Part shown: positions 30,645 to 36,485 of the stretch, piece by piece
Position numbering within the stretch: position 1 is the first letter of the stretch
Layout: each line of letters opens with the position of its first letter
NCBI GenBank assembly: GCA_949451605.1
Contig: CASTSB010000011.1
Coordinates: forward strand, 1 to 41,308
Reading direction: 5' to 3'
Source of the DNA: an uncultured Bacilli bacterium
Lineage (GTDB): Bacteria; Bacillota_I; Bacilli_A; RF39; UBA660
Length of the DNA: 41,308 nucleotides
Notes under the pieces: generated by a model
Told to the model about the DNA's origin: nothing
Databases searched by the model: none
What the model saw: only the letters and a program-made list of their open reading frames with translations
Translations under genes and position numbers: made by a program

Positions 30645-30670
30645 CAAAAAAAAAGACCTAATAAAAGTCT
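30645..30670 (-). terminator. Intrinsic terminator of the thioredoxin-like/PH operon
   Basis: AGACCT (30654-30659) pairs with AAGTCT (30665-30670) with one G-T, and eight or nine T follow on the minus strand. Confidence 0.65.
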
Positions 30671-31115
30671 ATTTTTCATGAGAATCAAAAGAAGGATATA
30701 ATTTTTTTGCTTCCATCATATATGCTGAAATATTAGTTTCAATTTCTGATAAAGCACCTTTAGAAATATTTGATAAAGTGATAAATTCCTTAATTGTATC
30801 AATATGAATTTTTCCCCAAATAATTCCACTTTTAACTTTTAAGTCATTAAACATATCTGGTGTAATTGAATCAAGAAAATATCCAATAACTACCCTTTTT
30901 CTTCCAATTAAAATTCTTTTATTAGTAAGACAAACAACTGCAGTACTTACAATATCAAAAGGATTATCATTTTTTTGTGCAACAAATGTATAAAGCGGTT
31001 CTTCTCCAGGATTTAAATGTCTTTCAACAATAGAGGCATTTTTTCTAATTCTCCACCCAATACTTGTTGGATACTTTTCCATAAATTTTAATGCTTGATT
31101 ACAAACTTTTCCCAT
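30669..31115 (-). CDS. Bacterial PH-domain protein (YokE-like)
   Basis: A 148-aa cytoplasmic protein. The string from about residue 37 to 130, with GEEPLYTFVAQ, VVCLTNKRILIGRK, VVIGYFLDSI and IHIDTIKEFI, follows the bacterial PH fold: a strand, TNKRI(L)-type turn, and a GxI-x-I-D-T-I strand before the closing helix. The C-terminal helix (SEIETNISAYMMEAKKLY) completes it. Such domains bind proteins or lipids; the partner is unknown. It starts 12 bases after the thioredoxin-like gene, so the two are co-transcribed. Confidence 0.7.
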   Translation of the reverse strand: MGKVCNQALKFMEKYPTSIGWRIRKNASIVERHLNPGEEPLYTFVAQKNDNPFDIVSTAVVCLTNKRILIGRKRVVIGYFLDSITPDMFNDLKVKSGIIWGKIHIDTIKEFITLSNISKGALSEIETNISAYMMEAKKLYPSFDSHEK

Positions 31116-31127
31116 ATTTTATTACAC

Positions 31128-31631
31128 CTAACCTTCTATAAATCCATTTTTAACAAAAAACTTAAAATAACCAGTAGAATCAGTTAATTCAGATAAACTA
31201 TCCTTTATTTTTCCATTTGAAACAACCATTATTAGAGGAGTAGAAAATGAGTTTAACTGATCATTAGAACTCATAAATTTTTCTTCACTTTCTTCAGTAA
31301 ATTCATCAGTCGAAATATAGTTAATTTCAATATCTTGTATAAACATAATATTTTGCACAATTGGTTCAGCTATTTGGCAATAATTGCAACTACTACTTCC
31401 AACAAATATAAGTACATCTTTATTGCCATTATATAAATTCAAATAATCATCTACACTTATTTTATTAAATTCTTTTTTACTACTTTCTGATACAGCCTTT
31501 GCTTCACTTCGAGCTTTCGCTAACAAATCATCAGCTTCAGCAATATTATTTTTTTCTCTTCCTACTAAAAATATAACAAAGAAAAATAGTACAAGTCCAA
31601 TTACTATAGATACAGTAGTTTTATTTTTCAT
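31128..31631 (-). CDS. Membrane-anchored thioredoxin-like protein
   Basis: About 167 aa. One N-terminal helix (VSIVIGLVLFFFVIFLVG), a helical Ala/Glu-rich stalk, then a thioredoxin fold outside the membrane. The active-site string is S-S-C-N-Y-C after a VLIFVGS strand, and the cis-Pro is in F-S-T-P-L-I. The CxxC is intact, so a thiol-disulfide role is likely. The frame continues to TTG 31646, but that TTGAGGTG is the Shine-Dalgarno; ATG 31631 is preferred. It is first in an operon with the PH-domain gene. Confidence 0.85.
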   Translation of the reverse strand: MKNKTTVSIVIGLVLFFFVIFLVGREKNNIAEADDLLAKARSEAKAVSESSKKEFNKISVDDYLNLYNGNKDVLIFVGSSSCNYCQIAEPIVQNIMFIQDIEINYISTDEFTEESEEKFMSSNDQLNSFSTPLIMVVSNGKIKDSLSELTDSTGYFKFFVKNGFIEG

Positions 31632-31676
31632 GTTAATACACCTCAAAAAAATTATATCATATTATATGCTTGATTA

Positions 31677-31713
31677 AAATAAAAAGAAAAGTAATCACTA
31701 TTTATTACTTTTC
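31677..31713 (-). terminator. Intrinsic terminator after the ABC-F gene
   Basis: GAAAAGTAAT (31686-31695) pairs with ATTACTTTTC (31704-31713) in a 10-bp stem, with TTTTT on the minus strand after one C. Confidence 0.8.
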
Positions 31714-33287
31714 TCAATATATTCTTCATAAGTAATACTTTTATCATTAATACTTCCATCAGCTTTTATTTCAATAACTCGATTAGCAACAGTACTATTA
31801 AGTTCATAATCGCGTGATGTAAACAAAACTTCTCCTTGAAAATTACAAAGTCCTTTATTTAAAGAAGTAATACTTTCTAGATCTAAATGGTTTGTTGGTT
31901 CATCTAGTATTAAAAAATTAGGTTGTTCCAACATCATTTTAGATAACATACAACGAGCTTTTTCTCCACCTGATAAAACATCAACTTTTTTAAAAACATC
32001 TTCACCAGAAAATAACATTCTGCCTAAGAATCCTCTTAAAATTGTTTCATCTTTAATATCATAAAATTGACCTATCCATTCCATTATATTCTTAGATATA
32101 TTAAAATACTCTGTATTATCTTGAGGCAAGTAACCATAATTAATAGTTTTTCCCCACTCTATACTACCTTTATCATATTTTTCTTTACCAGATAAAATAT
32201 TAAAAAGAGTTGTTTTAACCATATCATCTTGTGCCAAGAGACAAACTTTATCACCTTTTAGTATTGTAAAAGATACCTTATCTAAAATCTTTTTACCATC
32301 AACAATTTTTGTAAGATTTTCAACTTTAAGGATTTCTTTTCCTGCAGGTTTTTCAATTTTAAAATCTATAAATGGATATTTTCTAGAAGATGGTACAATC
32401 TCATCTAATTCTATTTTCTCAAGCATCTTCTTTCTAGAAGTAGCTTGCTTAGATTTTGAAGCATTAGCTGAAAATCTTGCGATAAAAGATTGTAATTCTT
32501 TAATCTTCTCTTCTTTTTTCTTATTAGATTCTTTCATTTGTCTTTGTAAAAGTTCTGATGATTCATACCAGAAATCGTAGTTACCAACGTATAATTTAAT
32601 CTTACCATAATCAATATCAGCAATATGTGTACATACATTATTTAAGAAGTGTCTATCATGTGAAACAATAATAACTGTATTATTAAAGTTAATTAAAAAC
32701 TCCTCCAACCACTTAATAGCCTCAATATCCAAACTATTTGTAGGTTCATCTAATAACAAAACATCTGGATTTCCAAATAAAGCTTGAGCAAGTAATACCT
32801 TAACTCTTGATTTAACAGGAAGTTCATTCATATTCAAATAATGTTCTTCTACTGGTATTCCTAAATTACTAAGAAGTTGAGATGCATCTGGTTCAGCATT
32901 CCAGCCATCTAAGTCCATAAATTCAGCTTCTAAATTAGCAAGTCTCATTCCATCTTCGTCGCTAAATTCAGTTTGAGAATATAATTTATCTTTTTCTTCC
33001 ATTATTTTGTATAATTTATCATTACCCATAATAACAACATCTATAACTCTTTTATCTTCGTATTGATAATGATCCTGTCTTAAAAAAGATAATCTCTCAT
33101 CTTTACTTATTACTACTTCCCCTGTTGTAGTTTCAATTTCTCCTGATAACAATTTCAAAAATGTTGACTTACCAGCACCATTAGCTCCAATAAGTCCATA
33201 ACAATTACCATTAGTAAATTTAATATTTACATCTTCAAATAAAGTTCTTTTTCCAAATTTTAAACTTACATTATTAACTTGAATCAC
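31698..33287 (-). CDS. ABC-F family ATPase (YbiT/YkpA-type) with one dead ATP site
   Basis: About 529 aa, two ABC domains joined by a charged linker, no membrane segments; ABC-F proteins act on ribosomes. Domain 1 has a normal Walker A (GANGAGKST, 34-42), Walker B (LLLDEPTN, 177-184) and H-switch (VSHDR), but its signature is L-P-V-K-S-R (156-161) instead of LSGGEK. Domain 2 has a normal signature (LSGGEK, 438-443) and Walker B, but its Walker A is L-A-Q-D-D-M-V-K-T-T (351-360) and its H-switch reads T-S-R-D. All changes fall on one composite site. The frame runs to GTG 33296, but AGGTGA points to GTG 33287 (MIQVNNVSLKFG). The promoter overlaps the oapA terminator. Confidence 0.92.
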   Translation of the reverse strand: MIQVNNVSLKFGKRTLFEDVNIKFTNGNCYGLIGANGAGKSTFLKLLSGEIETTTGEVVISKDERLSFLRQDHYQYEDKRVIDVVIMGNDKLYKIMEEKDKLYSQTEFSDEDGMRLANLEAEFMDLDGWNAEPDASQLLSNLGIPVEEHYLNMNELPVKSRVKVLLAQALFGNPDVLLLDEPTNSLDIEAIKWLEEFLINFNNTVIIVSHDRHFLNNVCTHIADIDYGKIKLYVGNYDFWYESSELLQRQMKESNKKKEEKIKELQSFIARFSANASKSKQATSRKKMLEKIELDEIVPSSRKYPFIDFKIEKPAGKEILKVENLTKIVDGKKILDKVSFTILKGDKVCLLAQDDMVKTTLFNILSGKEKYDKGSIEWGKTINYGYLPQDNTEYFNISKNIMEWIGQFYDIKDETILRGFLGRMLFSGEDVFKKVDVLSGGEKARCMLSKMMLEQPNFLILDEPTNHLDLESITSLNKGLCNFQGEVLFTSRDYELNSTVANRVIEIKADGSINDKSITYEEYIEKSNK

Positions 33288-33311
33288 ATATATCACCTCA
33301 AAGCTCTTATA

Positions 33312-33364: not shown

Positions 33365-33967
33365 TTATCCTTTATAAAAATTGGAAATGAATTTAGCAAA
33401 TTCATATAAAATGATGTCACTCTTATTTATAGCAAAGCTTTTACCTATAGCCTTACCACCAATAGTAATAGATGCAATTGTTGCAGAAACTACTAAAGAT
33501 GTAATAAAAGGATCAGTAGATAATTTTGAAGCTATCAATAGCGAAATAGTTGTACCTGCAGCTCCAGAAACTATACCACAAATATCACCAATAACGTCAC
33601 AGCAAAAACTTGATACTTTATCAGCATTTTTCTTAAATTTAACTGCAACATTAGCACCTTTGACTTTTCTTGAATTCATAGAATGGAAAACTGCTTCATC
33701 AGCTGTAGTAACAGAAACACCAACAATATCAAAAAGTATTCCTAAAAATACAAATAATAAAGTTACAACAACTCCAAAAAATAAAGACATATGAGGAATT
33801 GTAGATTCTGAAACAAATGACATTCCAATTGAAATTAAAAATGCAATAATAACAATTTTAAATATCCATGACCAATTTACGTATTCTTTTTTTTCTTTTT
33901 CTTTCTTTTTATTTTGAATTAATAAGTTCTCAAACTCCGACGGAACTTCGCCTTTCTTACTTTTCAT
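33365..33967 (-). CDS. OapA-like four-helix membrane protein (CNNM/DUF21-like)
   Basis: A 200-aa protein. A charged N-terminus (KKKEKEKKEY) is followed by four hydrophobic segments (about 33-51, 60-86, 122-142, 152-172). Between helices 2 and 3 the string TTADEAVFHSMNSRKVKGANVA resembles the E-A-x-x-S-x-x-x-x-R loop of CNNM/DUF21 membrane domains (CorB/CorC-type Mg transport proteins), but there are no CBS domains. It lies directly downstream of a roughly 610-nt structured RNA. A small DUF21-like membrane protein encoded just after a 600-nt RNA is the defining pair of the OLE system, whose OapA binds the RNA and holds it at the membrane. An AAGGAG Shine-Dalgarno precedes the ATG at 33967, immediately after the RNA terminator, so translation would depend on read-through. 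The identity rests on size, topology and place. Confidence 0.75.
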   Translation of the reverse strand: MKSKKGEVPSEFENLLIQNKKKEKEKKEYVNWSWIFKIVIIAFLISIGMSFVSESTIPHMSLFFGVVVTLLFVFLGILFDIVGVSVTTADEAVFHSMNSRKVKGANVAVKFKKNADKVSSFCCDVIGDICGIVSGAAGTTISLLIASKLSTDPFITSLVVSATIASITIGGKAIGKSFAINKSDIILYEFAKFISNFYKG

Positions 33968-33977
33968 AAAATCTCCT

Positions 33978-34008
33978 TGAAAAAAAAATAGTATTTAAAA
34001 TACTATTT
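33978..34008 (-). terminator. Intrinsic terminator at the 3' end of the OLE-like RNA
   Basis: AAATAGTATT (33986-33995) pairs with AATACTATTT (33999-34008), a 10-bp stem with a 3-base loop. A T-run follows, then the oapA Shine-Dalgarno. It would end most RNA transcripts before oapA. Confidence 0.85.
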
Positions 34009-34617
34009 ATTATTTAATTCATAATTATGGCAATTAACATAGTAAACTTTGAACCTTAGGTCAAGTAGGATTTCCCTGATTCTTACAATTCCGTTACCAA
34101 AATTGCGGTTCCCCTTTAAAAGAATCAATATGATGTCGCCAATTCATACGACTTGATTACCACTTAGTGTCCACTGCAATCCTATATTAATAAGTACACC
34201 CTAGGGGATTTCCCCACCAACACTTTACTATTAGTTCTTTTTTGCAAAGATTATTTCAAAGTGCAATACCTTAACTTTAGTCGGCCAACTAAAATTAGGA
34301 GATCACTTATCCCAAAATCTTCACTCAAGACAGGCTACACTACACATAACTTTCGCCACATGCAGGTTCTATCCCATTTCGTATCAAGTCCGTCAGTGAT
34401 AAATCACGTATAGGCTTAACACAATAATAGGTCTCCACAGATCATGGGTCGATGATCGTATGCCATTACGGTCGCCCACTCTCCTCATCTCCAGCATTCA
34501 CCCCAAACTGGGCGTAAGAAGCAAACACCAAAGGTTTCACAGATATGCCCTTTAACGATTGTTTAATCTCGTCTTCCTAGCAAAGTAATTGACTAGAATA
34601 ATGTGCCATCAATTACG
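34009..34617 (-). ncRNA. ole: Large structured RNA, probable OLE RNA
   Basis: About 609 bases without a credible gene, clearly GC-richer than the surroundings, between a consensus promoter and an intrinsic terminator. The 5' end TAATT-(G)-ATGGCA (34615-34604) pairs with the 3' end TGCCATAATTA (34032-34022), closing the whole molecule. Inner hairpins include TGATTCTT with AAGAATCA around a CCG/CGG helix near 34060-34110, GGGGAAATCCCC (34201-34212), TTTAGT/ACTAAA around GGCC (near 34275-34295) and GATCAT/ATGATC (near 34441-34458). Length, end-closing helix and the DUF21-like membrane protein gene right after it match OLE RNA, known from anaerobic and extremophilic Bacillota. It lacks the RNase P and tmRNA signatures. 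ROOL RNA has a similar length but no such neighbour. I cannot align it to the OLE consensus from memory. Confidence 0.75.
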
Positions 34618-34623
34618 TACTAC

Positions 34624-34652
34624 ATTATAGCATATTCATATACACTTGTCAA
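34624..34652 (-). promoter_or_regulatory. Consensus promoter of the OLE-like RNA
   Basis: On the minus strand TTGACA (34652-34647), a 17-base spacer ending in TGC, then TATAAT (34629-34624): a perfect -35, -10 and extended -10. It is the strongest promoter by sequence in the window and predicts a start at about 34617. Confidence 0.93.
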
Positions 34653-34660
34653 GTTTCTTA

Positions 34661-35806
34661 TTATTTTCTCTTAACTAATACTTTTTCTCTTTCATTTAGA
34701 TTGACTAACCTCGAATTTGAAAATTTATTTTTTAAGTCTGTATTAAAATAAGCTTTTTCAAATATACCATTATAATTAATATAATCAAAATAAAAATCTT
34801 CAGCATCTTCTTCAAAAACACTACTAGCTAAATTTAAATTATATTCAAAAGATGAATAATTATCATAATCTGGATTAATATTTAAATAAATCTTTTTCAA
34901 ATTATTTCTAGCTTCTTCTTGCAATTGACTACTATACTTACTTTTAGTTCCTTCAAGTTGACTTTTAAAGCTATCCTCATAAATATCAAGTAAATCTTTA
35001 GAATCATAATTTGTATTATTATAAAGATCAAGATAATTTGTAATTAAAGAAAAATCACCTTTACAAAAAGTTTCCATAACAATGTCACTACCAACCATTT
35101 CACAAAGCATCTTTATATAAGATACTTGATAAGGATAAATATTAGCTTCATAAAAAGGATCATCACTATAATATTCATTTGATAATAATTCAGTCATTCC
35201 CTCTCGAAAATAATAAGGTAATTTAAAACTTTTTTTACTTGTAAATAAAGCATGTATACCTTCATGTGTAATAATTCTATTCTCAAAATCTTTTTCAACG
35301 TATATATTTATTTTTTTTGAATTAAACAAATAATCACCTAACACCTTAGATGTATTATTATCTTCATGACGAGTACGTTCAATACTAAGATTTTTAAAAG
35401 TTTTATAAGCATTTTCCTTATCTAAATATTTACAATCTTCAACTATAGAATAAAATCCATAAAAAATTTTTTTGTCATCATTATTTATATTTTCATTTTC
35501 CAAAATAGAATTTAATAAGACTAAACTATCAATATTTTGATCATCAATTTCTACTCCAAATTCTCTTTCTAAATTTAAAACAATATCATCAACATCAGAG
35601 CTTTCTAAAATTAATTTTGTATTATCATAAGGTATACAATCTTTTTTTGTTTTTAAGCCATTACTAGAAGAAAATAAATAAAAAATTGTTCCAAGACATA
35701 CTATATATTTTAGTGAAGACAAAAAAGAAAAAGATTCACTTTTTCTTTTTTTAGATATTAAATTATTATAATTTTTATCTGCCATAACTCCCCCGAATTT
35801 AAGCAT
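34661..35806 (-). CDS. Membrane-anchored HExxH metallopeptidase-like protein
   Basis: About 381 aa. One N-terminal helix (YIVCLGTIFYLFSSS) precedes an extracytoplasmic domain. The zinc motif is I-T-H-E-G-I-H-A-L (HEGIH near 181-185). About 17-21 residues later come R-E-G-M-T-E-L-L, whose Glu can be the third ligand, as in gluzincins. The C-terminal part is Asp/Tyr/Asn-rich and not recognised. The substrate is unknown. Starts are possible at 35824, 35806 and 35785. ATG 35806 is chosen because it overlaps the glucosaminidase stop by 8 bases; ATG 35785 has GGGGGAG in front, but very close. It is co-transcribed with the glucosaminidase gene. No terminator is seen before the OLE-like promoter. Confidence 0.75.
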   Translation of the reverse strand: MLKFGGVMADKNYNNLISKKRKSESFSFLSSLKYIVCLGTIFYLFSSSNGLKTKKDCIPYDNTKLILESSDVDDIVLNLEREFGVEIDDQNIDSLVLLNSILENENINNDDKKIFYGFYSIVEDCKYLDKENAYKTFKNLSIERTRHEDNNTSKVLGDYLFNSKKINIYVEKDFENRIITHEGIHALFTSKKSFKLPYYFREGMTELLSNEYYSDDPFYEANIYPYQVSYIKMLCEMVGSDIVMETFCKGDFSLITNYLDLYNNTNYDSKDLLDIYEDSFKSQLEGTKSKYSSQLQEEARNNLKKIYLNINPDYDNYSSFEYNLNLASSVFEEDAEDFYFDYINYNGIFEKAYFNTDLKNKFSNSRLVNLNEREKVLVKRK

Positions 35807-36485
35807 TACGTATTTTTCCAACATAATAATTTATTTTAGACACCCAAGTAGTACTTTCTGCATACTTAGGTCCAATTTTTTCAACAGTATTTAATCCTCT
35901 AGAAAAATAATTTCTTTGTAAATTACTTACAAAATCAATAATTCCTTCATCAAGAGAAGCAAACACCTTATAGCTTCCTCCATTACATCCAGGAGCTCCT
36001 TTTTGTCCACCAACATTATTACATGTAATAACAAGTTTTGAACAGTTAGAACCACATCCAGTTTCATGTAATATTATAGCAAGAGCTATATAAGGGTCAA
36101 CCCCATATTCTAAAGCAGTAGATGCTATCATTTCACCTTTTCCAGCCATATATCCATTTCCTAAAAGTCTATTGAATTTAGAAGCAATTTCTTCCAAAGT
36201 AAGACCATCATATACCTCTACTCTTGGTGGTATTATAATAGATGCTGGAACTGTCTCCATAGAAACTTCTTGTAAGGGTAATAAAACTTTCTCAGTTTTA
36301 GTATCCTTATTGTCTATGATCATATTTGTAGAAGCTGCAACGCTTTTAATATCTATTTGTTTAGTATTATCTTTTCTATTATTTGAATCCTCTAAAGAGT
36401 ATTCACCTTGTAGTATTAAAGCAATCGAAATCATCATGATCCCAACTGTTAGTAAAACACCACACATTATCTTAGTTTTTTTCAA
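35799..36485 (-). CDS. Membrane-anchored glucosaminidase-like autolysin (GH73-like)
   Basis: A 228-aa protein with one N-terminal helix (GVLLTVGIMMISIALIL), a linker to about residue 90, and a muramidase/glucosaminidase-like fold: GKGEMIASTALEYGVDPYIA, then A-I-I-L-H-E-T-G-C-G with the catalytic Glu, then NNVGGQKGAPGC and YKVFASLDEGIIDFVSNL. It ends with W-V-S-K-I-N-Y-Y-V-G-K-I, as in LytG/FlgJ-type enzymes. It should cut glycan strands of peptidoglycan. The paired Cys near the active site (TGCGSNC, APGC) suggest a disulfide. The start is a TTG at 36485 seven bases behind GAGGTGA. Its promoter is at 36521-36549. Confidence 0.88.
   Translation of the reverse strand: MKKTKIMCGVLLTVGIMMISIALILQGEYSLEDSNNRKDNTKQIDIKSVAASTNMIIDNKDTKTEKVLLPLQEVSMETVPASIIIPPRVEVYDGLTLEEIASKFNRLLGNGYMAGKGEMIASTALEYGVDPYIALAIILHETGCGSNCSKLVITCNNVGGQKGAPGCNGGSYKVFASLDEGIIDFVSNLQRNYFSRGLNTVEKIGPKYAESTTWVSKINYYVGKIRNA

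Follow-up and report, generated by a model that had tools for sequence, protein, structure and literature searches.

Introduction

The stretch of DNA analysed here, 41,308 nucleotides of a contig from an uncultured Bacilli bacterium (the window), contains a long segment free of genes directly ahead of the gene for a small membrane protein. The question that this locus raises is what the segment encodes and whether it works together with the protein. An earlier note, made from the letters of the DNA, proposed that the segment is the gene of OLE RNA and that the protein is OapA, its membrane partner. OLE is, to our knowledge, among the largest conserved bacterial RNAs of unknown biochemical function. 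In this work we analyzed the RNA, the protein and their occurrence in related genomes. The locus is confirmed as a genuine OLE RNA gene with, directly downstream, the gene of OapA, the membrane protein that partners this RNA; the identification of the pair is firm.

The OLE RNA and Its Signals

In a cmscan search against Rfam, the OLE model (RF01071), which has a gathering score of 50 bits, scored 375.2 bits for positions 34625-34011 of the minus strand, at an E-value of 7.1e-107. The match covers the whole model (1-616) and has the boundaries that the earlier note had predicted, and apart from OLE and tRNAs no Rfam model reached its gathering threshold across the window. The RNA lies in an ORF-free gap of 693 nt (34660-33968) and, as had been noticed, it is richer in GC than its surroundings (38.5% against 26.0% for the window), a value that is reached by 1 of 407 windows of 615 nt.

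Transcription signals are found on both sides of the RNA. Upstream stands a sigma-A type promoter (34652-34624, minus strand), TTGACA-N17-TATAAT with an extended TG, which agrees with the consensus at 12 of 12 positions, as the word "perfect" in the earlier note implied, and which is the best among 16 promoter-like sites of the region. Among 87 non-redundant loci of relatives the best upstream promoter agrees with the consensus at all 12 positions in 50 and at 11 in 23, values that were reached by 0 and 0.2% of shuffled upstream sequences, and a TGn ahead of the -10 box is present in 83 of the 87. At the boundary between OLE and oapA we find the proposed intrinsic terminator, AAATAGTATTTTAAATACTATTTTTTTTTC (34008-33979, minus strand), with a 10-bp A/U-rich stem of -5.9 kcal/mol and a T run; it was missed by a stock terminator scan because that scan demands three G-C pairs. 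Terminator-like hairpins with differing stems stand 3' of OLE in 69 of the 87 relatives, counted by a loose rule that lets in some weak ones. The terminator is followed by the Shine-Dalgarno sequence AAGGAG (33973-33978, minus strand) of oapA.

Beyond the pair, the 387-amino acid protein encoded upstream (34661-35824) has no Pfam match and carries a zincin-like HEGIH motif. It adjoins a glucosaminidase-domain protein (35799-36485), and the two may form a small cluster of cell-wall or secreted enzymes. Downstream of oapA, at 30669-33296, are encoded ABC-F ATPase, thioredoxin-like and bPH_3-domain proteins.

Architecture of the RNA

The ends of the RNA are joined by helix P1, in which GTAATTGATGGCA (34616-34604, minus strand) pairs with TGCCATAATTAT (34032-34021) in 12 pairs with one bulge (-11.4 kcal/mol), very near the 11 bp that had been counted before. 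A long-range helix, P3, is formed by two arms of approximate boundaries (34576-34591 and 34216-34229, minus strand) with 13 pairs in the window and is left unpaired by the Rfam model. Since our shuffle tests ignore the shared ancestry of the loci, the following figures are support and not probabilities: the P1 arms of 105 loci form 6.46 of 8 ungapped pairs with their cognate partners, where 2000 shuffles average 5.62 and never exceed 5.89, and the P3 arms of 87 loci have a duplex energy of -9.68 kcal/mol with their cognate and -6.22 kcal/mol with exchanged partners. The innermost pair of P1 is C-G in 70 and U-A in 34 of the 105 loci. Compensatory change in the closing helix, whose absence the earlier note had named as evidence against its call, is therefore present.

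Two stem-loops of the Rfam alignment, P7 (34371-34432) and P8 (34340-34365, both on the minus strand), have approximate boundaries and a numbering that we derived from published descriptions (PMC12054373; PMC11332333). The presence of P7 marks the full-length class, and both stems are aligned in the window RNA, which therefore belongs to this class.

The apical loop of P9 (L9.3; 34278-34288, minus strand) reads UGGCCG in the window and contains the palindrome GGCC, at the position of the published kissing loop of the OLE dimer. By loop alignment, GGCC is found in 66 of 87 relatives. Among the 19 other loops that have letters at this place, 12 carry a different palindrome at exactly the same columns and 7 carry one within two columns, whereas neighbouring registers of the loop are palindromic in just 0-11 of 85. 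The palindromic nature of the loop thus appears to be kept while its letters change, in agreement with the symmetric kissing loop seen in the OLE dimer by cryo-EM (PMC12286853; PMC12265935). Such palindrome-to-palindrome swaps lend the published RNA dimer independent support from evolution. Promoter, P1, P3 and the palindromic loop are all conserved, the helices and the loop by compensatory change, and the architecture of OLE RNA is therefore under selection.

The OapA Protein

The oapA gene (33967-33365, minus strand) encodes a protein of 200 amino acids with four transmembrane helices, as its ORF, alignment and structure model indicate. The AlphaFold2 model (pLDDT 91) superimposes on the CNNM transmembrane domain of MtCorB (7m1t) with Z 14.7 and an rmsd of 2.2 over 129 residues, and on CorC with Z 12.8, while the next fold reaches only Z 8; the CNNM-like, four-helix character proposed before is thus well borne out by the model. 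At the sequence level the likeness is weaker: the OapA profile matches CNNM weakly (hhalign probability 80%), a PDB sequence search with this profile gave no match, and the best genome-wide score for PF01595 (CNNM) is 16.2 bits against a cut-off of 28.4. Pfam CNNM is nevertheless found at E 0.1 or better in 52 of 70 OapA relatives, the best at 4e-9. No CBS domains are present in the protein.

It was reported that OapA proteins are recognized by a DxxxD motif and by the absence of the conserved CNNM proline (PMC11332333). In the window protein DxxxD corresponds to D124/D128, invariant in 70 sequences, and alignment with MpfA proteins places G175 at the site of the proline. The name OapA in the earlier note is thus supported by the predicted fold, by both motif features and by co-occurrence with OLE, while the window protein alone falls below the Pfam CNNM cut-off. 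The CNNM motif GExxPK reads GKAIGK, with the glutamate replaced by K172, again invariant in the 70 sequences. This glutamate coordinates Mg2+ in CorC, and its replacement by lysine makes a Mg2+ site of the CNNM type in OapA doubtful. The invariant K172 also matters for the question whether OapA is a Mg2+ transporter in the first place.

Distribution and Known Partners

Among 193 genomes of the window's order OLE is present in 119 and OapA likewise in 119, with 118 in common, so that 118 of the 120 genomes bearing either one bear both. In the genome with OapA and an absent OLE call (G129), OLE is cut by a contig end and its 3' end is still there. In the reverse case (G065), a full-length OLE (L137:2593-3164) with its own terminator has no oapA downstream of it within the 4-kb stretch compared, and none was detected in the 93% complete genome. 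These counts indicate that OLE and OapA are retained or lost jointly, even among species of one genus, and since many close relatives are without both genes the function is dispensable. In a larger sample OLE was found in 213 of 385 genomes and in 90 of 118 genera. In the phylum and class samples OLE was found in the window's family only, and these contain no OLE-bearing genome from outside the family that could bridge to the OapA of H. halodurans (WP_010898928.1). A protein scan with OapA returned 66 related loci. The MAGs that contain them are labelled Bacilli, Erysipelotrichaceae, Firmicutes or Tenericutes, and the isolate names of many refer to gut or rumen; OLE stands upstream of oapA at nearly all of these loci. 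Relatives of the ABC-F ATPase, thioredoxin-like and bPH_3 proteins appear at 30-44 of the 66, which shows partial conservation of the neighbourhood.

Some partners known for OLE were not detected. In the window's genome, which is 95% complete, OapC (L7Ae-like, PF01248) gave no match, with a positive control in B. subtilis. The sole KOW match in this genome is a frame of 188 amino acids, the size of NusG, and no 11-kDa KOW protein of the OapB type was detected, the KOW motif being short enough to be missed. The gene for bS21 is present; CCTCC, the anti-Shine-Dalgarno mimic, is absent from the window RNA and from the OLE RNAs of all 87 relatives. This bS21-related mimic (P6) was described for the OLE of H. 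halodurans (PMC12054373).

The 95% complete genome also contains no MpfA. An anticorrelation between OLE and MpfA has been published across Bacillota and supports a role of OLE in Mg2+ physiology. In the window's order MpfA is found in 7 of 119 genomes with OLE and in 4 of 74 without it (three further matches are OapA itself); it is equally rare in both, and the Bacillota-wide anticorrelation is therefore not repeated within the window's family. Substitution of MpfA for OapA after loss of OLE was considered and rejected, as MpfA is rare either way. In about 70 genomes of the order no OLE, OapA or MpfA was detected, so that in this family MpfA does not make up for a lost OLE complex.

Length Classes of OLE

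OLE RNAs of the window's family have lengths of about 590-615 nt or about 480-520 nt (E near 1e-65), and two are of about 380 nt. The latter (L135:1169-1546 in G026 and L136:1163-1543 in G034) belong to different genera and adjoin oapA, and a genome of the second genus (G700) has an E-value similar to that of this form. About a dozen nucleotides replace the P5-P8 stretch, and P1, P2, P3, the A-rich loop of P4, the P9 hairpin with its palindromic loop (TGATCA in L135, an equivalent in L136), P10 and domain 2 are retained. We found no mention of this form in the OLE papers that we consulted. In RNAs of about 480-490 nt (L148:795-1274; L150:767-1253), P7, P8 and most of the distal P9 arm, on which the palindromic dimer loop sits, are gone. 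A loop of this kind is kept in the forms of about 380 nt.

A tentative proposal, to which we give slightly less than even odds, is that the family displays the OLE particle in natural stages of reduction, from the full-length RNA of the window through about 490 to about 380 nt, with OapA as partner, with neither OapC nor the bS21 mimic and apparently with no OapB, and that the shortest form would be the minimal functional OLE core. The lineage shows which parts are dispensable, namely OapC, apparently OapB, the bS21 mimic and, in two relatives, also P5-P8. What persists is OapA and, within the RNA, P1, P3, the A-rich loop of P4 and the P9 loop with its palindrome; these parts outline a core that is worth testing.

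Discussion

What, then, does the pair do? The most likely answer is that the ole-oapA locus specifies a stripped-down, membrane-bound OLE-OapA complex that tunes Mg2+ and stress physiology; we assign this reading a probability of about 0.87. Transcription of OLE would start at its own strong promoter and stop at the A/U-rich hairpin, which gives an RNA of about 620-640 nt, with oapA expressed by read-through or from an unseen promoter. The RNA is expected to adopt the OLE architecture, in which P1 brings the two ends together and P3 anchors domain 1, and it would probably dimerise via the palindromic P9 loop, as the published cryo-EM work together with the pattern of palindromes suggests. OapA, a four-helix protein of CNNM-like fold and without CBS domains, would bind OLE and tether it to the membrane, and there the complex would adjust Mg2+ and stress physiology. 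The partnership of the RNA with OapA is established by neighbourhood and co-occurrence; the membrane location, the RNA-protein contact and the physiological role are carried over by analogy from work on H. halodurans.

One possible alternative is that OLE acts in cis, as a long leader or attenuator that controls oapA through the intervening terminator, rather than as an RNA-protein particle that works in trans. This arrangement, with OLE directly upstream of oapA and a terminator between them, is indeed found in most relatives, and the gap is below 150 nt in 88 of 95 loci. Yet in the other 7 of the 95 it is filled by 594-3241 nt of other sequence, in one locus (L095) a polysaccharide-deacetylase-like gene stands between the two, and in one genome (G165) they lie on different contigs, with OLE intact in every case. 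In H. halodurans, moreover, OLE acts with OapA at the membrane (PMC12265935), and we regard control in cis as improbable.

Still less probable is that the locus is a decaying remnant which survives by chance in a reduced genome. The host is without OapC and apparently OapB, and nearly half of the related genomes are without both ole and oapA, as might be expected of a system in decay; however, P1, P3 and the palindromic loop show compensatory change, the promoter is almost invariant, and RNA and protein are lost jointly. Another large RNA class beside an unrelated membrane protein, for example ROOL, which the earlier note had set against its own call, can be rejected as practically without a chance: a similar size and the gut habitat are all that speaks for it, no computed result favours it, OLE alone among large-RNA models passes the gathering threshold (E 7e-107), and the adjoining protein has the hallmarks of OapA.

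The OLE-OapA complex thus remains the reading that we prefer, and it can be compared with three known systems. With the MpfA/CorC Mg2+ exporters (CNNM plus CBS), OapA shares the predicted transmembrane fold (Z 12.8-14.7) and a weak profile match; unlike them it has no CBS or CorC domains and neither the glutamate nor the proline of GExxPK, and it has DxxxD. With the full-length OLE and OapA of the H. halodurans and C. acetobutylicum type, the window shares the whole Rfam model, P1, P3, the A-rich P4 loop, the P9 palindrome and the position of oapA directly downstream. It differs from this type in that OapC (L7Ae) and the 11-kDa KOW protein were not detected in its genome and the RNA has no CCUCC mimic. 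Its OLE also has its own promoter and terminator and is not part of a long polycistron, and the pair stands alone, as had been observed, with no isoprenoid or DNA-repair neighbours.

The third system is the closest in lineage. Fernando and Breaker reported OLE from two clades of uncultured gut microbes whose genomes are reduced, RF39 and TANB77; variant 2 OLE, which is without P7 and P8, is common in RF39, OapB and OapC are largely missing and OapA is almost always present (PMC11332333). The window's genome most probably belongs to RF39, as its size, the MAG labels, the habitat and these common traits suggest. The window agrees with variant 2 in the lack of OapC and the apparent lack of OapB and differs in that its RNA has both P7 and P8. 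The full-length form (about 590-615 nt) and the shorter one (about 480-520 nt) are both found in the window's family. The claim of the earlier note that the locus extends OLE to this AT-rich lineage was overstated, as a paper of 2024 had already described OLE from RF39, a clade with reduced genomes (PMC11332333). Since the pair had been known before, also from small-genome gut bacteria of this sort, the window adds a sound example to a kind of system already described, and its discovery value is modest. What it adds is detail: a full-length form with OapC and MpfA undetected, a bS21 mimic absent in 87 relatives, an invariant lysine in OapA and, in two relatives, an OLE of about 380 nt.
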